DNA of 64,000 nt from Bryobacteraceae bacterium CoA2 C42 (GTDB lineage: Bacteria > Acidobacteriota > Terriglobia > Bryobacterales > Bryobacteraceae), in the NCBI GenBank assembly GCA_019931245.1, contig JAINDL010000003.1:1-64000 (forward strand). The letters are read 5' to 3'. The translations under genes were made by a program, and so were the position numbers. Numbering within the stretch: the first letter of the stretch is position 1; every line of letters begins with the position of its first letter. A model generated the notes under the pieces. The model had not been told where the DNA came from, did no database searches, and worked only from the letters and a program-made list of their open reading frames with translations. Of the stretch, positions 23,379 to 30,300 are shown in pieces.

Positions 23379-24234
23379 CCTGCTCGTAGTATGTCACACG
23401 CCTCTCGGCGCGCAGCGGCAGGACCTGGAGGCCCTGCTGCCGCCCCCGGCGACCGCCACCGCGGCGGTGCGGCAGGCGGTACTGGCCGGCGACCTACCGC
23501 GCGCCGCATCGCTCGCCGCGGCGCTGCCGGCCGCCGAGCGCCCGGTCTGGCTCGGCCTGCTCGCCATCCTCCGCCGCGAGGCCCCGGCGGCCATCCGCCT
23601 GCTGCGCCCGGCCGGCCAGCCGAAACTGCTGGGCGTCGCCTACTACCTCGCCGGCCAGCATCTGCTCTTCCGCGATCAGATGACCGAGGCCATCCGGCGC
23701 GACCCCCTCGACTTCGGCCCCTACTACTACCTCGGCCGCCACTACGACACCGACGGCAACGACGCCGAGACCGCCGCCGGCTGGTTCCGTCGCGCGCTCG
23801 AGCGCCACCCCGGCCACGCCCGCTCCCGCTCCTATCTCGGCTTCTGCCTCGAACGCCTCGGCGAGACCGGGGAGGCGGCCGCCGCCTACACGGCTACCCC
23901 AACGCTGCTGAACTCCCAACTCGGTCTAGCCCGACTCCGCCTCGCCGCCGGCGAGCCGGCCGAAGCTCTGCCCTACGCCATCCGCGCCATGGCCATCGAC
24001 CCGGCCGACGCCGCCGCCCCCAAGCTGGCCGCCCGCCTCTACACGGCGCTGGGGCGGCGGGAGGAGGCGATCACGGCGCTTGAAACCGCCGCGCGCCTCG
24101 CCCCGACCGATGCCACCCTCCGCTATCAGCTCTTCCGGCTCTACCAGGCCAAAGGCGCGGCCGCGAAGGCTGCCGCAGCCCGCGCCGAGTTCGAGCGACT
24201 GCTCCGCATCTACGGTTCGCAGCCCTCGAATTGA
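23332..24234 (+). CDS. Exported TPR-repeat protein
   Basis: A 300-residue protein with an N-terminal hydrophobic leader (TAIALILLVVCHTPLGAQ). TPR-like repeats follow through most of its length, such as DFGPYYYLGRHYDTDGNDAETAAGWFRRALERHPGHARSRSYLGFCLERLGETGEAAAAY and, near the end, ALGRREEAITALETAARLAPTDATLRYQLFRLYQAKG. It is similar in style to the divergent 22677-23378 gene, and the two may be old duplicates with a shared role in envelope assembly; this is inference. No catalytic motif is seen. ATG 23332 lies inside the neighbouring gene, but no later in-frame start would keep the leader. It is followed at once by the mobile-element scar. Confidence 0.78.
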   Translation: MLPAVIQPARTAIALILLVVCHTPLGAQRQDLEALLPPPATATAAVRQAVLAGDLPRAASLAAALPAAERPVWLGLLAILRREAPAAIRLLRPAGQPKLLGVAYYLAGQHLLFRDQMTEAIRRDPLDFGPYYYLGRHYDTDGNDAETAAGWFRRALERHPGHARSRSYLGFCLERLGETGEAAAAYTATPTLLNSQLGLARLRLAAGEPAEALPYAIRAMAIDPADAAAPKLAARLYTALGRREEAITALETAARLAPTDATLRYQLFRLYQAKGAAAKAAAARAEFERLLRIYGSQPSN

Positions 24235-24316
24235 ACCGGATCGGTCAGAAGCGTACAGGCCGCGCCGGCCCGGCGCCAACGGGCGAGTTCCTCGCCCCTG
24301 GAGTTTCTACATAAAT

Positions 24317-24633
24317 TCAAGCGGCGGCGGCGCGGGTCATTGCTGGCGCGGAGATTTCGAAACCAAATGGTTCTAGCAATTGGGGTTGTTCGGCCATTTC
24401 GATTCGGAGCAGAGCAATGAGATCGAGACAGGACGGGCGGCGAGCGCGGCGTCTCCACTTGGGGAGTTTGGCGTAGACTGGTCCACGGCCGGCGCCGAAT
24501 GCGCGAATGGAAGCAAACAGCAGCGCGCGGTAAGCCGCAACGGCGAGGACCGGCTGTTTGGGCGCCGCAGTAAAGTCCCCAAGCTGCGCTTGGCCGACGC
24601 CGAGAGTGTCCTTTTCTTCGCGGTGATTGACCT
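24317..24633 (-). pseudogene. Transposase, 3' part downstream of the group II intron
   Basis: Read leftward from 24633, the frame gives V-N-H-R-E-E-K-D-T-L-G-V-G-Q-A-Q, then PVLAVAAYRALLFASIRAFG, KLPKWRRRARRPSCLDLIALLR and a stop at 24317. These are C-terminal blocks of a DDE-type transposase family in which an E-V-N-H-R-E-E-K-D segment contains the last catalytic acidic residue. The matching upstream half is at 26610-26859, separated by the intron. Joining base 26610 to 24633 restores the frame as Q-I-E-V-N-H. The upstream half has its own stop codon, so the gene is dead even if spliced. Confidence 0.75.
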
Positions 24634-24694
24634 GTCGGCTAAAGGGACTGGCGCGGTGCTGAGATTGCCCGCCCGTTTCCAGCCCCTCCCCATA

Positions 24695-24728
24695 AAAACT
24701 GCTCGTGAAGTTTTCCCTCAAGCAGCTC
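24695..24728 (-). ncRNA. Group II intron domain V
   Basis: On the minus strand the 34-base segment begins GAGCTGCTTGAGGG, has a GAAA-type loop, and returns as CTTCACGAGCAGTTT. It folds as the short hairpin expected for domain V, with the AGC triad in the 5' strand and a two-base bulge (AC/CG) in the 3' strand. It lies 54 bases after the maturase stop and 61 bases before the intron 3' end, the normal position. Confidence 0.7.
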
Positions 24729-24781
24729 AGCCAGTGACTTTAGTCGAAAGGGTTATAAGCTCTATTAACCGGCAGCCACTA

Positions 24782-26089
24782 TCACGTGCCTTTACCGACT
24801 CCGGGGAGCGGTTGGATCTCCCAATCCCAGTGCAGCCCCAGCACATCGGGAAGCTATTCGTTACTCCATCGCCGCCAACCAACACTGCGCTTTCGCCGCC
24901 GTGTCCGCCGCGTCAACAGAGTGCGGACTTTCATCTCGACATAGTCGCGGACCTCGCTAAAAGCACGACTCGAGTTACCAACCCTGAAGTAAGTCACTCA
25001 CCCGGCCAGCGCGGCGTTGATCCGATTCACCACCTCCGCCGCCGGGGTTGCTCCCCCGCGCGCGATGATGTCGCGAATCTTCGCTTGGACAGCCTTGCGG
25101 GCCTTCTTTTTCGGCGTCATCAAGATGAAGTTTCCGTCTCCGCCTCGCTTGCGCACACGGCGCAGATCGAACCCCAGGAACCCGAAGGCCTCCCCGTTCA
25201 GCGTGTTCACCATCTTGGTTTTCTCCAGGTTCAACTCCACACCCAACGGCGCGATCTGCTCCTGAAGCCGTTGCAGCGCCCGTTCGGCCCAGCCCCGTTT
25301 GGTATGGTGCCCGCTGACGGTGATCACAAGATCATCGGCAAACCGATGATAGTTGACCGCCTCGTATGCCCCCTCCGCCGTTTTGCGGCGAATCGCGTCG
25401 AAGAACCAGTCGAGCTCGTTGAAATAGATGTTCGCCGCCAGCGGGCTGAACGGGCCCCCTTGCGGGACCCCGACACTTCCGCCAGCCTTGATAATCTGCT
25501 TCACGAGGCCCATGACTTCTGGGTCCTGGATCCGCTTGGCGATCTTATCCAACAGCACCGAATGCCGGATCGTGTCGAAGTAGCGCGACAGATCGACATC
25601 AATCACTGTCGACATCCGCCGCACCACACTCCGCCTGACTTCCGCCAGTGCTTGGTGTGGGCTCCGCTGCGGTCGCAATCCGTAGGAGTTCGGGCAAAAG
25701 TCCGCCTCGAAGACGGCTTCGAGAATCAGCTTCAGCGCCCCCTGCACCACGCGGTCGCGGATACAAGGAGTCTGAAGCGTTCGGAATTTGCCGTTGCCTT
25801 TCGGGGTCTCTACCCGGCGGTTCGGCATGGGTTTGTATCTGCCTGTGTCAAGGTCCTCCCGCACTGCCGCAAGAAACGCGTCCCGTCCCGCGGACTCAAT
25901 GTCCCGGAAACTCTGGCCGTCGATGCCCGAAGCACCGTCGTTTCCCTTCGCCATGCGATAAGCCTCATCGAGAGTCTCAATCTTCGTGATAGGCACGAAC
26001 AGACCCCAGAAACGATGCGTCGTTTCTGACTTCGCCTTTCGATAGATCCGCCGTCGCAGTTCCTGCCGACTGCCGGGCGCCTTTGTCAT
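24782..26089 (-). pseudogene. Group II intron reverse transcriptase-maturase with two in-frame stops
   Basis: The first 363 codons encode a reverse transcriptase with the usual blocks: NDGASGIDGQSF, RPLGIPT-like KFRTLQTPCIRDRVVQ, PNSYGLRP, VIDVDLSRYFDTI, GVPQGGPFSPLAANI, the catalytic box YHRFADDLVI, and LNLEKTKMVN. A TGA at 25000-24998 falls where relatives have Trp (ALAG-W-VTYFRVGNSS). The same frame then runs on through the maturase (X) domain, FSEVRDYVEMKVRTLL and WRRWSNE, to a TAG at 24856-24854 where Tyr is expected. It continues DVLGLHWDWEIQPLPG to TGA at 24782. The unbroken length would be about 435 residues, typical for this family. No H-N-H endonuclease motif is seen. The maturase is probably inactive. 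Confidence 0.85.
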
Positions 26090-26609
26090 CTCGACCCTGC
26101 CTCGCCTTGACGAACGGCATTACTCACCGGTCCGGGCCCTTCCCTCCGGGCGCGTTTTGCCGCACGTACATCGCCAGTACTACGACCCGATCCGTCACCC
26201 TGGCGCCTATGCCAACATTTCCCCCTCACGGTTATAGCCGGCATCTCCTCGACGGGATTTCTCCGCCGGGCACCGAGGGCTTCTCCAGTTTCTACATCAT
26301 CCTTCCCGCCATGTCGCCGCTGATACCCCGCCGGTGAGGGCTGTCGCAGCGGACCCGTTTCGGCCGGCCCTTTCTGCTTTCGCGCGTTATCGACCGCCTC
26401 AGCCACCGGAGTTTCGTGTTATGAGGCTACCGCTGCGTTCACTTTACATTGCAACCTGGTGGGTTGCGCATACTCCTTTCCGGGTATGTTGCCGGAGGGC
26501 TCCACCGTCTTGTTTTCACGCCACGGTGCCTCCCAAGCTACGAGGCCTGAGTCTGTTGGCCTCGGCCGGACTTTCACCGGCTGGACAATCTGTCCTTGTC
26601 TGGACACGC

Positions 26610-26859
26610 CGATCTGCCACCGGTCGAAGTAGATTTGCAATAACGGCTTGGCGGAACTGCCAAGGTCGGTAGTGAGCAAGTACCCCTGCTGGGGATAGCA
26701 CAGCTTCTTGCTTTTGCTCTTGCGATACGGAGTCGGGGCGATCACGATGAGGCGAAGCGGGCGCTGTTTGGCTCTGCCTTGCCAGTACACGCCGACCAGC
26801 GGGAATGGTTGTTCTGCCGCTTGTCGTTCCTGCTTCGCGCCGCCTACTTGCCGTTCCCA
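26610..26859 (-). pseudogene. Transposase, 5' part upstream of the group II intron
   Basis: Leftward frame from just after a TGA at 26862-26860 to the intron boundary. It contains PLVGVYWQGRAKQRPLRL, IVIAPTPYRKSKSKK, QQGYLLTTDL and LLQIYFDRWQI, all blocks that precede the E-V-N-H-R-E-E-K-D motif in the same transposase family as 24317-24633. The frame continues upstream of the TGA to 27324 (VVGVKTLKARTVPARG before the stop), but that stretch does not show transposase features I recognise. The transposase thus carries at least one nonsense mutation besides the intron, and its N-terminus cannot be placed. Confidence 0.65.
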
Positions 26860-27260
26860 TCAACCCCTTGCGGGGACCGTTCGGGCCTTCAGCGTCTTCA
26901 CGCCTACTACGCGCTCTGCTGACTTCTGCCGCCCGGTCAGGGCCGATCGCTCGGCCCTCAGTAGTGATTCCACGACAAACGTCAGATCTCCCGAGGTAAG
27001 TTCGACCGCCTTCCGCACGCAATTGCCGAATTTACAGCCAACTCCTTTGATGGATATGGACTTCGTTGTCATTCGCCAACTCGTCCAGTCGCTGCCTGCC
27101 TCTGATCCGGTTCTTGTACATCGACTGGTGCGTTTGCTCCACGCTTCTTTCAGACCCCGCCTCGCGGCGTCGCCCTTGCGCTTCGCTATCACTTCACCTC
27201 CATCAGGTTGTGCAAAGGACTCTCGCCTTCGAGCTGTCGAACAGGCTCGGCACACAAAGA
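26860..27260. other. Degenerate DNA beside the interrupted transposase
   Basis: Open frames exist on both strands but none has recognisable domains, a ribosome site or gene-like context. The likely explanation is the decayed 5' region of the inserted transposon. No terminal inverted repeat could be identified with confidence. Confidence 0.4.
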
Positions 27261-27296
27261 CAAGTGCCTTCCGCCCTGGTGGGCGGAAGGCACTTG
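27261..27296 (-). terminator. 16-bp stem-loop after the receptor gene
   Basis: CAAGTGCCTTCCGCCC (27261-27276) pairs perfectly with GGGCGGAAGGCACTTG (27281-27296) around a four-base loop. Read leftward it lies 59 bases after the stop of the 27355-30945 receptor gene and is followed by TCTTTGTGTG, a modest T-rich tail. It probably ends that transcript. Confidence 0.65.
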
Positions 27297-27354: not shown

Positions 27355-30300
27355 TCAGAAGTAAAACTTAGCGGCCACCATGATCCGGCGCGGCGTGCCC
27401 TGCTGGCCGGTGATCACCCCGAAAGTCCGCGAAAGAATGGCATTTCCGGGACTGGCGGGATTCATCTTGTTGAACAGGTTCTGCGCCTCCATGCGCAGCT
27501 GCAGCGACCGCTTCTCCGAGAAGATTCGGAAGCTCTTGAGCAGCGACAGGTCCCATTGCGAGAAGCCCGGCGCGCGGAAGTTCGGCATCGTTGAGGGCAC
27601 ATCGCCGATCTCGAAATCGCGGACCACGCGGAAGGCGTCCGGGTTGAAGAACGGACGGAAGCCGGGGGCGCCTTCGAGCGCCGTATGGCCGCTCACGTTG
27701 TTGCGATAGTCCACACCGGGCACAAAGACGGGCTGCGAATCGCGCCCGTGTCCAATGTTGTACCAGTTCGAACCGAGGCCGCCCACGGTATTGGAGGGGG
27801 TACGGGCCGTAATCGGCACGCCGGAGCGGAGCGTGGTGGTCCCGGCCAGAGTCCAGCCGCCGACGACGTGATCGAGGACGTTGGCGCCGAAGCCACTCGG
27901 GGAGTTGAGGAAGTTGCGGCCGCGGCCAAACGGGAGTTCGACCGAGTAGTTGAACAGTAGCTTGTGCGTGATGTCGGTGGTGGCCACGCCGTAGGTATTC
28001 GAGACCGGGAGGCCCGCCTGCGGATAGGGCATGCCGAAGCCGCCGTCGTAGGAGCCGACGTCATTGAGCAGCTTCGAGAAGGTGTAGTTGATCAGGAAGC
28101 CGAAGCCGCGCGAGAAGCGATGTTCGGCCTGGACGTAGCCGGCGTGGTAGTTTGAAGTTCCGAGCGGTTCGCCGAGAGTCCAGATTTCGGTCCAGAGCGG
28201 ATTGCGCTGGAAGAGCCGTCCGAAGGGAATCGTCGCCGAGCCCATACCGGTAAATTGCGGAACGAAGCCAACGTAGGGATTGGCGACTTGATTGTTCAGC
28301 CGCAGGCCGAGGGGGCCGATCTTGCTGTAAGCATCGGGCAGAATGTGCTCGCCGGTACCGAGGTAGTAGGGGAGGGTGCGGCCGAGGTTGCCCGTGTAGT
28401 TCGCCTCGAGCAGCCAGGCGTTGGCGCCGGAGCCGACTTCGCGCTGCAGGCCGAAGTGGAAGGCGTGTTCGTAGCCCGGGCTCAGGTTGGTGGCCGAGGA
28501 GACGAACCAGTTGCCCATGACGGAGCGGTTAAGGGCATCAATATCGCGGGTCAGCCGGACCAGGCCCGCGCCACCCGGCATGGGGTTCGAGAAGCGCAGC
28601 GGGAAGGTCAGGCCGCCGTCGGGCGTACCGCCCTGAATCAGGCGGGCAGCGTCTCCGTAGCCGATGTTCCAGGGGGAGCCGTTCAGGTGGAAACTGCCGG
28701 TGAGGGTCATCCAGATGAGGCCGTAGCCGCCGCGGATGACGGTCTTGGGATTCACCGACCAAGCTACTCCGAGCCGCGGCCCAAGGCGGTCCCACTGCTG
28801 TTGCTGCAGGGTGCGGCCGGGGTACTCTTTGGTGCCCATCAGCGCGACGCGGCCGAGGATGCCCTGCTGCGTCCATTCGGGCGTCGGGGCGTTGGCGCCG
28901 GTGGCGCCAGCCTGGGCCAGCGCGGCGTTCCAGTTCCAGCCGGCCGCGGGATTGACCGGCCACTTGTAGCTGCGGTCCCAGAAGGTCTGGCGGTCGAAGC
29001 GCTCCGTGCGCGGCGGTTCATAGTCCCAGCGGAGGCCGGCGTTGATGGTGAGATTCTTGGTGACCTTGAAATCGTCCTGGATGAACAGACCATGGTAGTT
29101 CTGCAGCGAGGCGGGGCCGGCGAGTTGGGTGCCGGAGCCGCCGCCCACCACTCCCAGCATCCAGGAGGCAAAACCCGAGCCCTGGCCGTTGTTGGGCGCG
29201 TCGAAAAACTGGCTGGTGGCGCTGCGGATGGAGGCCGAAGAGAAGGAGCCGCCCGAGTAGATATTGGAGTAGTAGCGGCGGTGTTCGTAGCCAAACTTGA
29301 TGGTGTGGCGGCCGGTGAGCTTCTGCAGCGAGAACTGGCCGGAATAGATAGTATCGCGGTTATCGGCCACGGAGCCGCCGCCGAGGGCGTTGATCGTGTC
29401 GGCCGTGCCCAGCGACGGAACGCGATTTTTGGTACCGCCCAACAGGTTGACGACCTCGGGCGAGAGGCCCCAGGCGGCCCCATCGGCATCCACCTGCGCA
29501 CCGGAGAAGGCCACCGAGCGGACGGCGCCGAGACGGAAGTTCAGGATGGTGGAGGAGTTGAGCAGGTAGTTGTGGTCAAAGGCCATGGTGAAGGCGCGCG
29601 TATCGTTGGTGGTAACGGGCTGCAGCGCCGAGAGCCAGCGGACGCCGGCGGAGAACTCGGAGAACTGCGTGATGGTGAAGTGGGAGTTGTGTTTGGAGGA
29701 CCAGTTCTGATCGAGGCGGCCGGTCCAGCGGTCGTTGTCGAGGGGCGTGGAGGCCGAGCCGATGAAGTTCTGGTCGTGCGAGGAGTTGGGGCGGGGCGGG
29801 GTGTTGGGACGGGGGTAGAAGTCGAGGTAGATCTTGGCCAGCGGGTCGATGCGGGAGGCCGGGATGCGGTTGCCGGGGAAGGCGGAGCGGACCACGCGGC
29901 CGCCCTCGGCGCGGGCGGTGAGGGGATCGGAGATTTGCACGCGGGCGCCGTTGTCGATCAGCGACTGGGAGAAGTCGCCGGCGCGTTCGAGGTCGGAGGG
30001 TACACCGGCCAATTGGGCGTTTGAGCCGGTGCGGCGGCGGGTGCCTTCGTAGTTGACGAAGAAGAACGTGCGGTCTTTGCCCTTGTAGATTTTGGGGATC
30101 CAGACGGGTCCGCCGAGGGCGCCGCCGAAGACGTTGTCGTGGAAGACGCCCTTGGCACGGCCGAAGCGGTTGGAGTTCCAGTCGTTGGCGTTGAGCTTGT
30201 CATTGCGGAAGAATTCATAGGCGGAACCGTGGAATTCGTTGGTGCCGCTGCGGGTGACAAGCGTGACGGCGCCGCCGGAGAGGCGTCCGTACTCGGCGGA

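Follow-up and report, generated by a model that had tools for sequence, protein, structure and literature searches.

A stack of mobile elements and the intron within it

The window, a 64-kb stretch of DNA, holds pieces of several mobile elements stacked between a TonB-type receptor-like gene (minus strand, stop at 27355) and a TPR protein-like gene (plus strand, end at 24234), both recognized by reading. All of the pieces lie on the minus strand. The one next to the receptor-like gene is a terminator-like hairpin (27261..27296; −33.8 kcal/mol, z −7.9), directly followed by the 5' remnant of a second, different group II intron (26801..27255). Then come a piece of a transposase coding sequence lacking its N-terminal part (exon 1, 26610..26800), the main group II intron of 1976 nt (24634..26609; 5' GCGTG...CGAC 3') and the rest of the transposase up to the stop codon (exon 2, 24317..24633). 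The right end region of the IS (24298..24316), where the window has TAGAAACTCCAG in common with the intact relatives L015, L016 and L017, closes the stack; beyond it, the alignment of L015 and L016 to the window is lost.

The limits of the 1976-nt intron are set by two empty sites. L015 (genome G010) and L016 (G015), both from the window's genus, carry the transposase without an intron, and their alignments to the window run up to 26610 and resume at 24633, with contiguous subject bases (1502/1501) and neither gap nor overlap. Since the alignments meet exactly, the join is defined to the base. Exon 1 is 93.2% identical in DNA to L015 (from 26799) and 91.9% to L016 (from 26794); the figures for exon 2 are 91.6% and 89.8%. 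Joining 26610 to 24633 yields YFDRWQI-E-VNHREEK, and target bases were neither lost nor duplicated. An earlier note, based on the sequence of the locus alone, had proposed an intron inside a transposase with exons that rejoin in frame, to be checked against uninterrupted copies. That proposal is exact to the base, L015 and L016 agree with the predicted junction, and these two empty sites rule out a chance in-frame join.

The same note placed the insertion near the catalytic Glu; the position is finer than that. PMC2266710 gives the IS4 signature as Y-(2)-R-(3)-E-(6)-K, whose Glu belongs to the DDE triad, and states that the Tyr is mostly absent from IS701 elements. The Y-2-R-3-E-6-K spacing appears after joining, as YFDRWQIEVNHREEK, and is found in intact L015, L016 and L017 as well. 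The intron thus splits the catalytic Glu codon itself, as G|AG. On the IS701 model NF049999, with its cut-off of 170, intact L016 reaches 127.7 and L017 130.1, so we label the host “IS701/IS4-type” without placing it as a member. The note's implication of a whole transposase did not stand: about 63 homologous residues precede the site, versus about 415 in L016 and L017. With the N-terminal part absent (homology starts at ~26799), the window copy would give no whole transposase even if spliced.

The covariance-model search that the note had called for supports a group II fold in the domain I region, where RF02003 (group-II-D1D4-4) matches 26444..26583 (minus strand) with 108.9 bits against a gathering threshold of 49. 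Putative domains V and VI, with the 3' splice site, occupy 24634..24730 (minus strand). This segment folds as two stems within a closing stem (z −3.4, with 1 of 200 shuffles equally good), and RF00029, the domain V/VI family, matches 24730..24658 with 31.8 bits, below its gathering threshold of 40. Four relatives score on either side of that threshold, L026 (41.4) and L038 (42.0) above it, L022 (39.3) and L086 (34.9) below. Set against the group II end consensus 5' GUGYG...AY 3', as given in PMC4424553, the 3' end of the window intron (AC) agrees and the 5' end (GCGUG) differs; the Cupriavidus copies have GUGUG. A twister-sister ribozyme match (26606..26528, 24.4 bits, below the gathering threshold of 34) overlaps the intron 5' end and was rejected.

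The reverse transcriptase (RT)/maturase frame of the intron (24791..26089, minus strand) is broken by in-frame stops at 25000-24998 and 24856-24854. Its first part, an ORF from 26089 to 24998, matches RVT_1 (E 1.5e-28) and reaches 298.3 bits on TIGR04416, where the cut-off is 300. The relative L022, whose RT is 87% identical to that of the window, keeps the frame open over 439 residues. The “full intron with maturase” described previously was thus an overstatement. Judged by its sequence, this copy is a decayed relic, presumably dead or dependent on help in trans.

The remnant upstream, which the earlier note had left out together with the usual homing site of the lineage, is recognized by RF02001 (27171..27000, 104.8 bits) and RF01998 (26960..26884, 48.3 bits). 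These matches cannot be assigned to the main intron: they belong to other Rfam families and sit 5' of the transposase piece (27255..~26801). The remnant begins at 27255, immediately after the strong hairpin with its T run, and four further matches to it in the same genome (L081-L084) are preceded, by eye, by GC-rich inverted sequence and T runs. Bacterial class C introns insert after terminators, according to PMC8919778, and the second intron resembles them in this position; its Rfam families are D1D4-3 and D1D4-1. The main intron lacks this class C placement, since it lies within a coding frame and not just after a terminator. In the window, the transposase piece that holds the main intron appears fused to this truncated, terminator-associated element.

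Insertion sites across the lineage

Relatives of the RT were sought without regard to their exons. Within the phylum, 2 of 297 genomes, the window's own among them, had one at E<=1e-70. The genome collection gave 49 RT loci, of which 35 fall within the lineage, at 53-88% identity. RT matches on plasmids came from 24 records (one at 78.5%, the others below 60%), and one viral contig also carries a relative. The lineage census comprises 39 loci, namely those 35 plus the window, L022, L008 and L073. Fourteen loci at 35-47% RT identity (L057, L058, L060-L069, L071, L072) were left out as lying outside the lineage. Ten of them, all but L062, L065, L066 and L069, were scanned with Rfam, and eight of the ten have a different domain I family, RF02005; in nine, the lineage query was also used to look for the intron ends and failed to place them. 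In the RT tree, 25 lineage rows stand on one side of a branch and three rows of a sister lineage on the other (SH-aLRT 99), ten rows that belong to no group being uncounted; L049 joins weakly (55).

The insertion sites of this lineage are strongly alike. Of the 39 loci, 33 allowed the 5' end to be located, and 30 of these fit (CGN|AGR)TGG-N3-[AG]TNG|, the misses being L037, L043 and L059 (whose exon ends in ACAG). With identical exons merged, 25 of 28 distinct 5' junctions fit. On the 3' side, placeable in 34 loci, 32 exons begin with A[AG]; the misses are L027, where an intron stands in tandem, and L040, which conforms once its boundary is corrected. In L027, at ~4457, the 3' end of one intron abuts the 5' end of another, and L073 (2483-6453) apparently contains more than one intron copy in series.

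By translation, and with some frames short, 22 of the 25 fitting junctions read as transposase frames in which the Glu codon is in phase; the other three, L029, L044 and L073, fit the motif but show no recognizable transposase. Of the 32 distinct 3' exons of this discovery set, 19 have the signature Lys at E+7, some frames being short, masked or decayed. Ten hand-chosen exons were scanned with HMMs: nine had transposase matches, six of them above curated cut-offs, and the exon ORF of L048 matched no transposase family, only SEC-C. Within each family, exon 1 ends at one and the same model position in every match considered: at 290 of 332 in NF033592 (4/4 best matches), 281 of 405 in NF033590 (2/2), 328 of 449 in NF049925 (2/2) and 163 of 200 in PF01609 (6/6). 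An empty site exists for L030 (C. necator A5-1), on another strain's plasmid (NZ_CP068436.1; 105/105 nt matched, 99.0%), and here too the insertion is precise, with no target loss or duplication.

Hosts with an assigned phylum belong to Acidobacteriota, Pseudomonadota, Bacillota, Thermodesulfobacteriota, Bacteroidota and Planctomycetota; the named records from Acidobacteriota, Thermodesulfobacteriota, Bacteroidota and Planctomycetota are MAGs, so single phylum calls may be wrong. With the DNA of the L026 intron as query, neither the 20,395 E. coli records nor the 50,697 phage records searched gave a match; 60 plasmid records did, and one of them contained 80% or more of the query. In C. necator UYPR2.512, the upstream exon of L032 is that of L034 (100%, 862 nt) and its downstream exon that of L033 (99.3%, 408 nt). 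This pattern suggests that intron copies may have recombined and exchanged transposase ends, producing chimeric transposases. On the UYPR2.512 plasmids (L032, L033, L034, L055), one upstream transposase half is joined to differing downstream halves.

Before a later set of loci was examined, a prediction was fixed for RT relatives in other orders: RW-x-[IV]-G| upstream and A[AG] downstream. The later set consisted of the viral match and of a DNA search of 257 genomes from the window's own order, 34 of which gave some match. Six of the eight distinct 5' junctions were as predicted, or seven if Leu is allowed; L087 reads RWKL (CTGG), and in L096 the motif is longer by one base. All 15 distinct 3' exons begin with A[AG], and Lys at E+7 occurs in 8 of the 12 examined by script. 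L115, a second copy of L087, was uncounted; L117, whose upstream frame contains a stop, is outside the script-based counts, as are L079, L094 and L118 for 3' ends, and the 3' boundaries of L094, L119 and L120 were read by eye. Further copies in the window's own genome agree with this. In C110, exon 1 reads ...AKQRWII|G and its last 30 nt continue uninterrupted in L130, a comparison that covers the 5' side only because C110 lacks the intron 3' end. C101 and C157 show AG|ACGGCGTTCGAT... after the intron, giving E-TAFDELK and E-TAFDQLK.

Recognition of the target

The pairing that reads the target can be followed from copy to copy. In the window, EBS1 (CGAU, 26389..26392, minus strand) sits in the loop GUCGAUA (26394-26388) and pairs at 4 of 4 positions with IBS1 (ATCG, 26610..26613, minus strand), the last four nucleotides of exon 1. 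In a comparison of 34 distinct copies, 128 of the 136 positions are paired, the eight exceptions being single mismatches, mostly at position −2. When EBS1 was shuffled among copies, the mean was 114.7 and 128 was reached once in 20,000 (p ~1e-4), a test that kinship among the copies inflates. EBS1 shifts with its target, as in L088 (GTGG/CCAU), L087 (CTGG/CUAG) and L116 (GTGG/CUAC). Even the off-target copy L037, with its odd exon GTGCGG, has a corresponding EBS1, CCGCAC.

Upstream of IBS1 lies a further target element, CGGTGG in the window (26617..26622, minus strand) and CGNTGG in general, which covers the Arg-Trp codons. Counts over 35 distinct 5' exons show G-9 and G-1 to be invariant, C-13, G-12, T-10, G-8 and T-3 nearly so, and positions −11, −7, −5 and −2 to be variable. 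The constrained bases fall mostly at codon positions fixed by the protein motif and the free ones at degenerate positions, a distribution that would make several IS groups usable as targets. A CACCAGG loop was considered as EBS2 and set aside, since its CAGG also occurs in the Rfam consensus and is hence not diagnostic.

Two off-target copies bear on what is recognized. Both are antisense insertions, L029 (C. necator A5-1) into a gene for an AAA_16 ATPase and L044 (Lentibacillus jeotgali) into a globin-like frame that scores just under the Pfam cut-off. Both keep CGNTGG-N3-ATCG|A, which argues that a DNA sequence is recognized and not a gene. The motif is by no means confined to transposases: the window's genome has 22 empty CGNTGGNNNATYGAR sites, compared with 7 for a reversed control pattern, and 8 of the 22 read as transposase Glu codons; the window itself contains one empty site of a looser pattern. 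With only 8 of 22 sites at such codons, the motif alone fails to explain the excess of insertions in transposases. Something beyond the CGNTGGNNNATYGAR motif must contribute, either further contacts that are read or selection that loses other insertions.

A probable homing site in the catalytic codon

These observations make it very probable that the RNP of this lineage homes on CGNTGG-N3-[AG]TNG|A with EBS1 reading the site, and that the window holds a dead or trans-dependent relic of such an event, an interpretation drawn from sequence comparison. Within IS4/IS701-type DDE transposases, the target encodes the Arg-Trp-x-Ile/Val-Glu of YREK, so that the intron enters in phase 1, between bases 1 and 2 of the codon for the catalytic Glu. 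EBS1 pairs with the final four nucleotides of exon 1, as the covariation supports, and CGNTGG might be read by EBS2 or by the RT protein. From what is known of group II introns, insertion would proceed by reverse splicing and reverse transcription; splicing is predicted, from the frame, to restore the Glu codon.

One could instead picture a single ancient insertion in one IS that then spread vertically and with the IS, so that the common site reflects descent. Exons are indeed shared within L022/L024, L026/L028, L030/L045, L032/L034/L055 and L087/L115, copies that may have moved together with their IS. However, the host transposases belong to different families (NF033592, NF033590, NF049925, IS701-like) while the intron 5' ends in C. 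necator A5-1 are alike, L029, L037, L043 and L044 occupy sites with no recognized transposase frame, and intron-free sites of the same IS are present; we regard this account as very improbable. Somewhat less remote, though still improbable, is unspecific targeting followed by survivorship, in which insertions elsewhere were lost as harmful to the host. The minority of motif sites that are transposase Glu codons in the window's genome speaks for it, given that most examined insertions fall there. Yet the insertions outside transposases, L029 and L044, also fit the motif and EBS1, which itself covaries with IBS1; such selection may act in addition to homing but cannot yield base-exact targeting. 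As for the window pair itself, it might be a functional intron-split IS that transposes after splicing. The exons join in frame, domain I, EBS1 and a domain V/VI-like 3' end are present, and a maturase might come in trans from another copy. Against this stand the absent N-terminal part of the transposase, the two stops in the maturase frame and the state of the genome's other large copy, C110, internally deleted and devoid of a 3' end. We give this possibility hardly any credence and retain homing on the motif, with a relic in the window, as the preferred explanation.

Group II introns that target IS elements are already known, and the window copy, taken alone, is an ordinary decayed nested element. 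RmInt1 of Sinorhizobium, a group II intron in ISRm2011-2 whose protein has no endonuclease domain, differs from the present lineage both in its IS and in its intron lineage. The E.c.I4, E.c.I2, E.c.I9 and E.c.I3 introns of Enterobacteriales likewise retrohome into IS elements. In the accessible portions of the reports on them, their targets are IS3-like, Rsh IS or IS679, and those portions contain no statement that we could find of a catalytic codon at the E.c.I4 site; the lineage described here, in contrast, uses IS4/IS701-type elements of several HMM families, in hosts from six assigned phyla and mostly at the YREK Glu codon. A sister lineage on plasmids of Bradyrhizobium, Caballeronia and Paraburkholderia (L074-L077) shares RF02003, with RTs 46-49% identical. 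In L074 and L075, EBS1 in the same loop (AACCG) pairs with exon CGGTT, but none of the four 5' exons examined fits the transposase motif; in L074-L076 (2486-2491) the 5' exon resembles, by eye, the domain V of a different group II intron, a twintron-like arrangement. A domain V-like target would likewise be a strongly conserved part of a mobile element. In literature searches that covered few subscription papers, we found neither a lineage with its usual insertion point at the catalytic codon in several IS groups and phyla nor a paper linking a group II intron with YREK.

The choice of site points to a parasite adapted to a region of the enzyme that is hard for its host to change. More tentatively, one might conceive of a homing site that is nearly inescapable: bases fixed by the motif would be read, most synonymous ones ignored, and EBS1 adjusted to Ile, Val or Leu codons. 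Movement across IS groups and phyla, transposition that needs splicing, and dispersal borne by the IS could then follow. Homing on a catalytic-residue codon that several transposase families share would explain how one retroelement crosses both phyla and IS groups, and would couple the activity of the transposase to RNA splicing. It would also predict where such introns lie in further genomes, and supply studies of intron targeting with a naturally occurring set of EBS1/IBS1 pairs.
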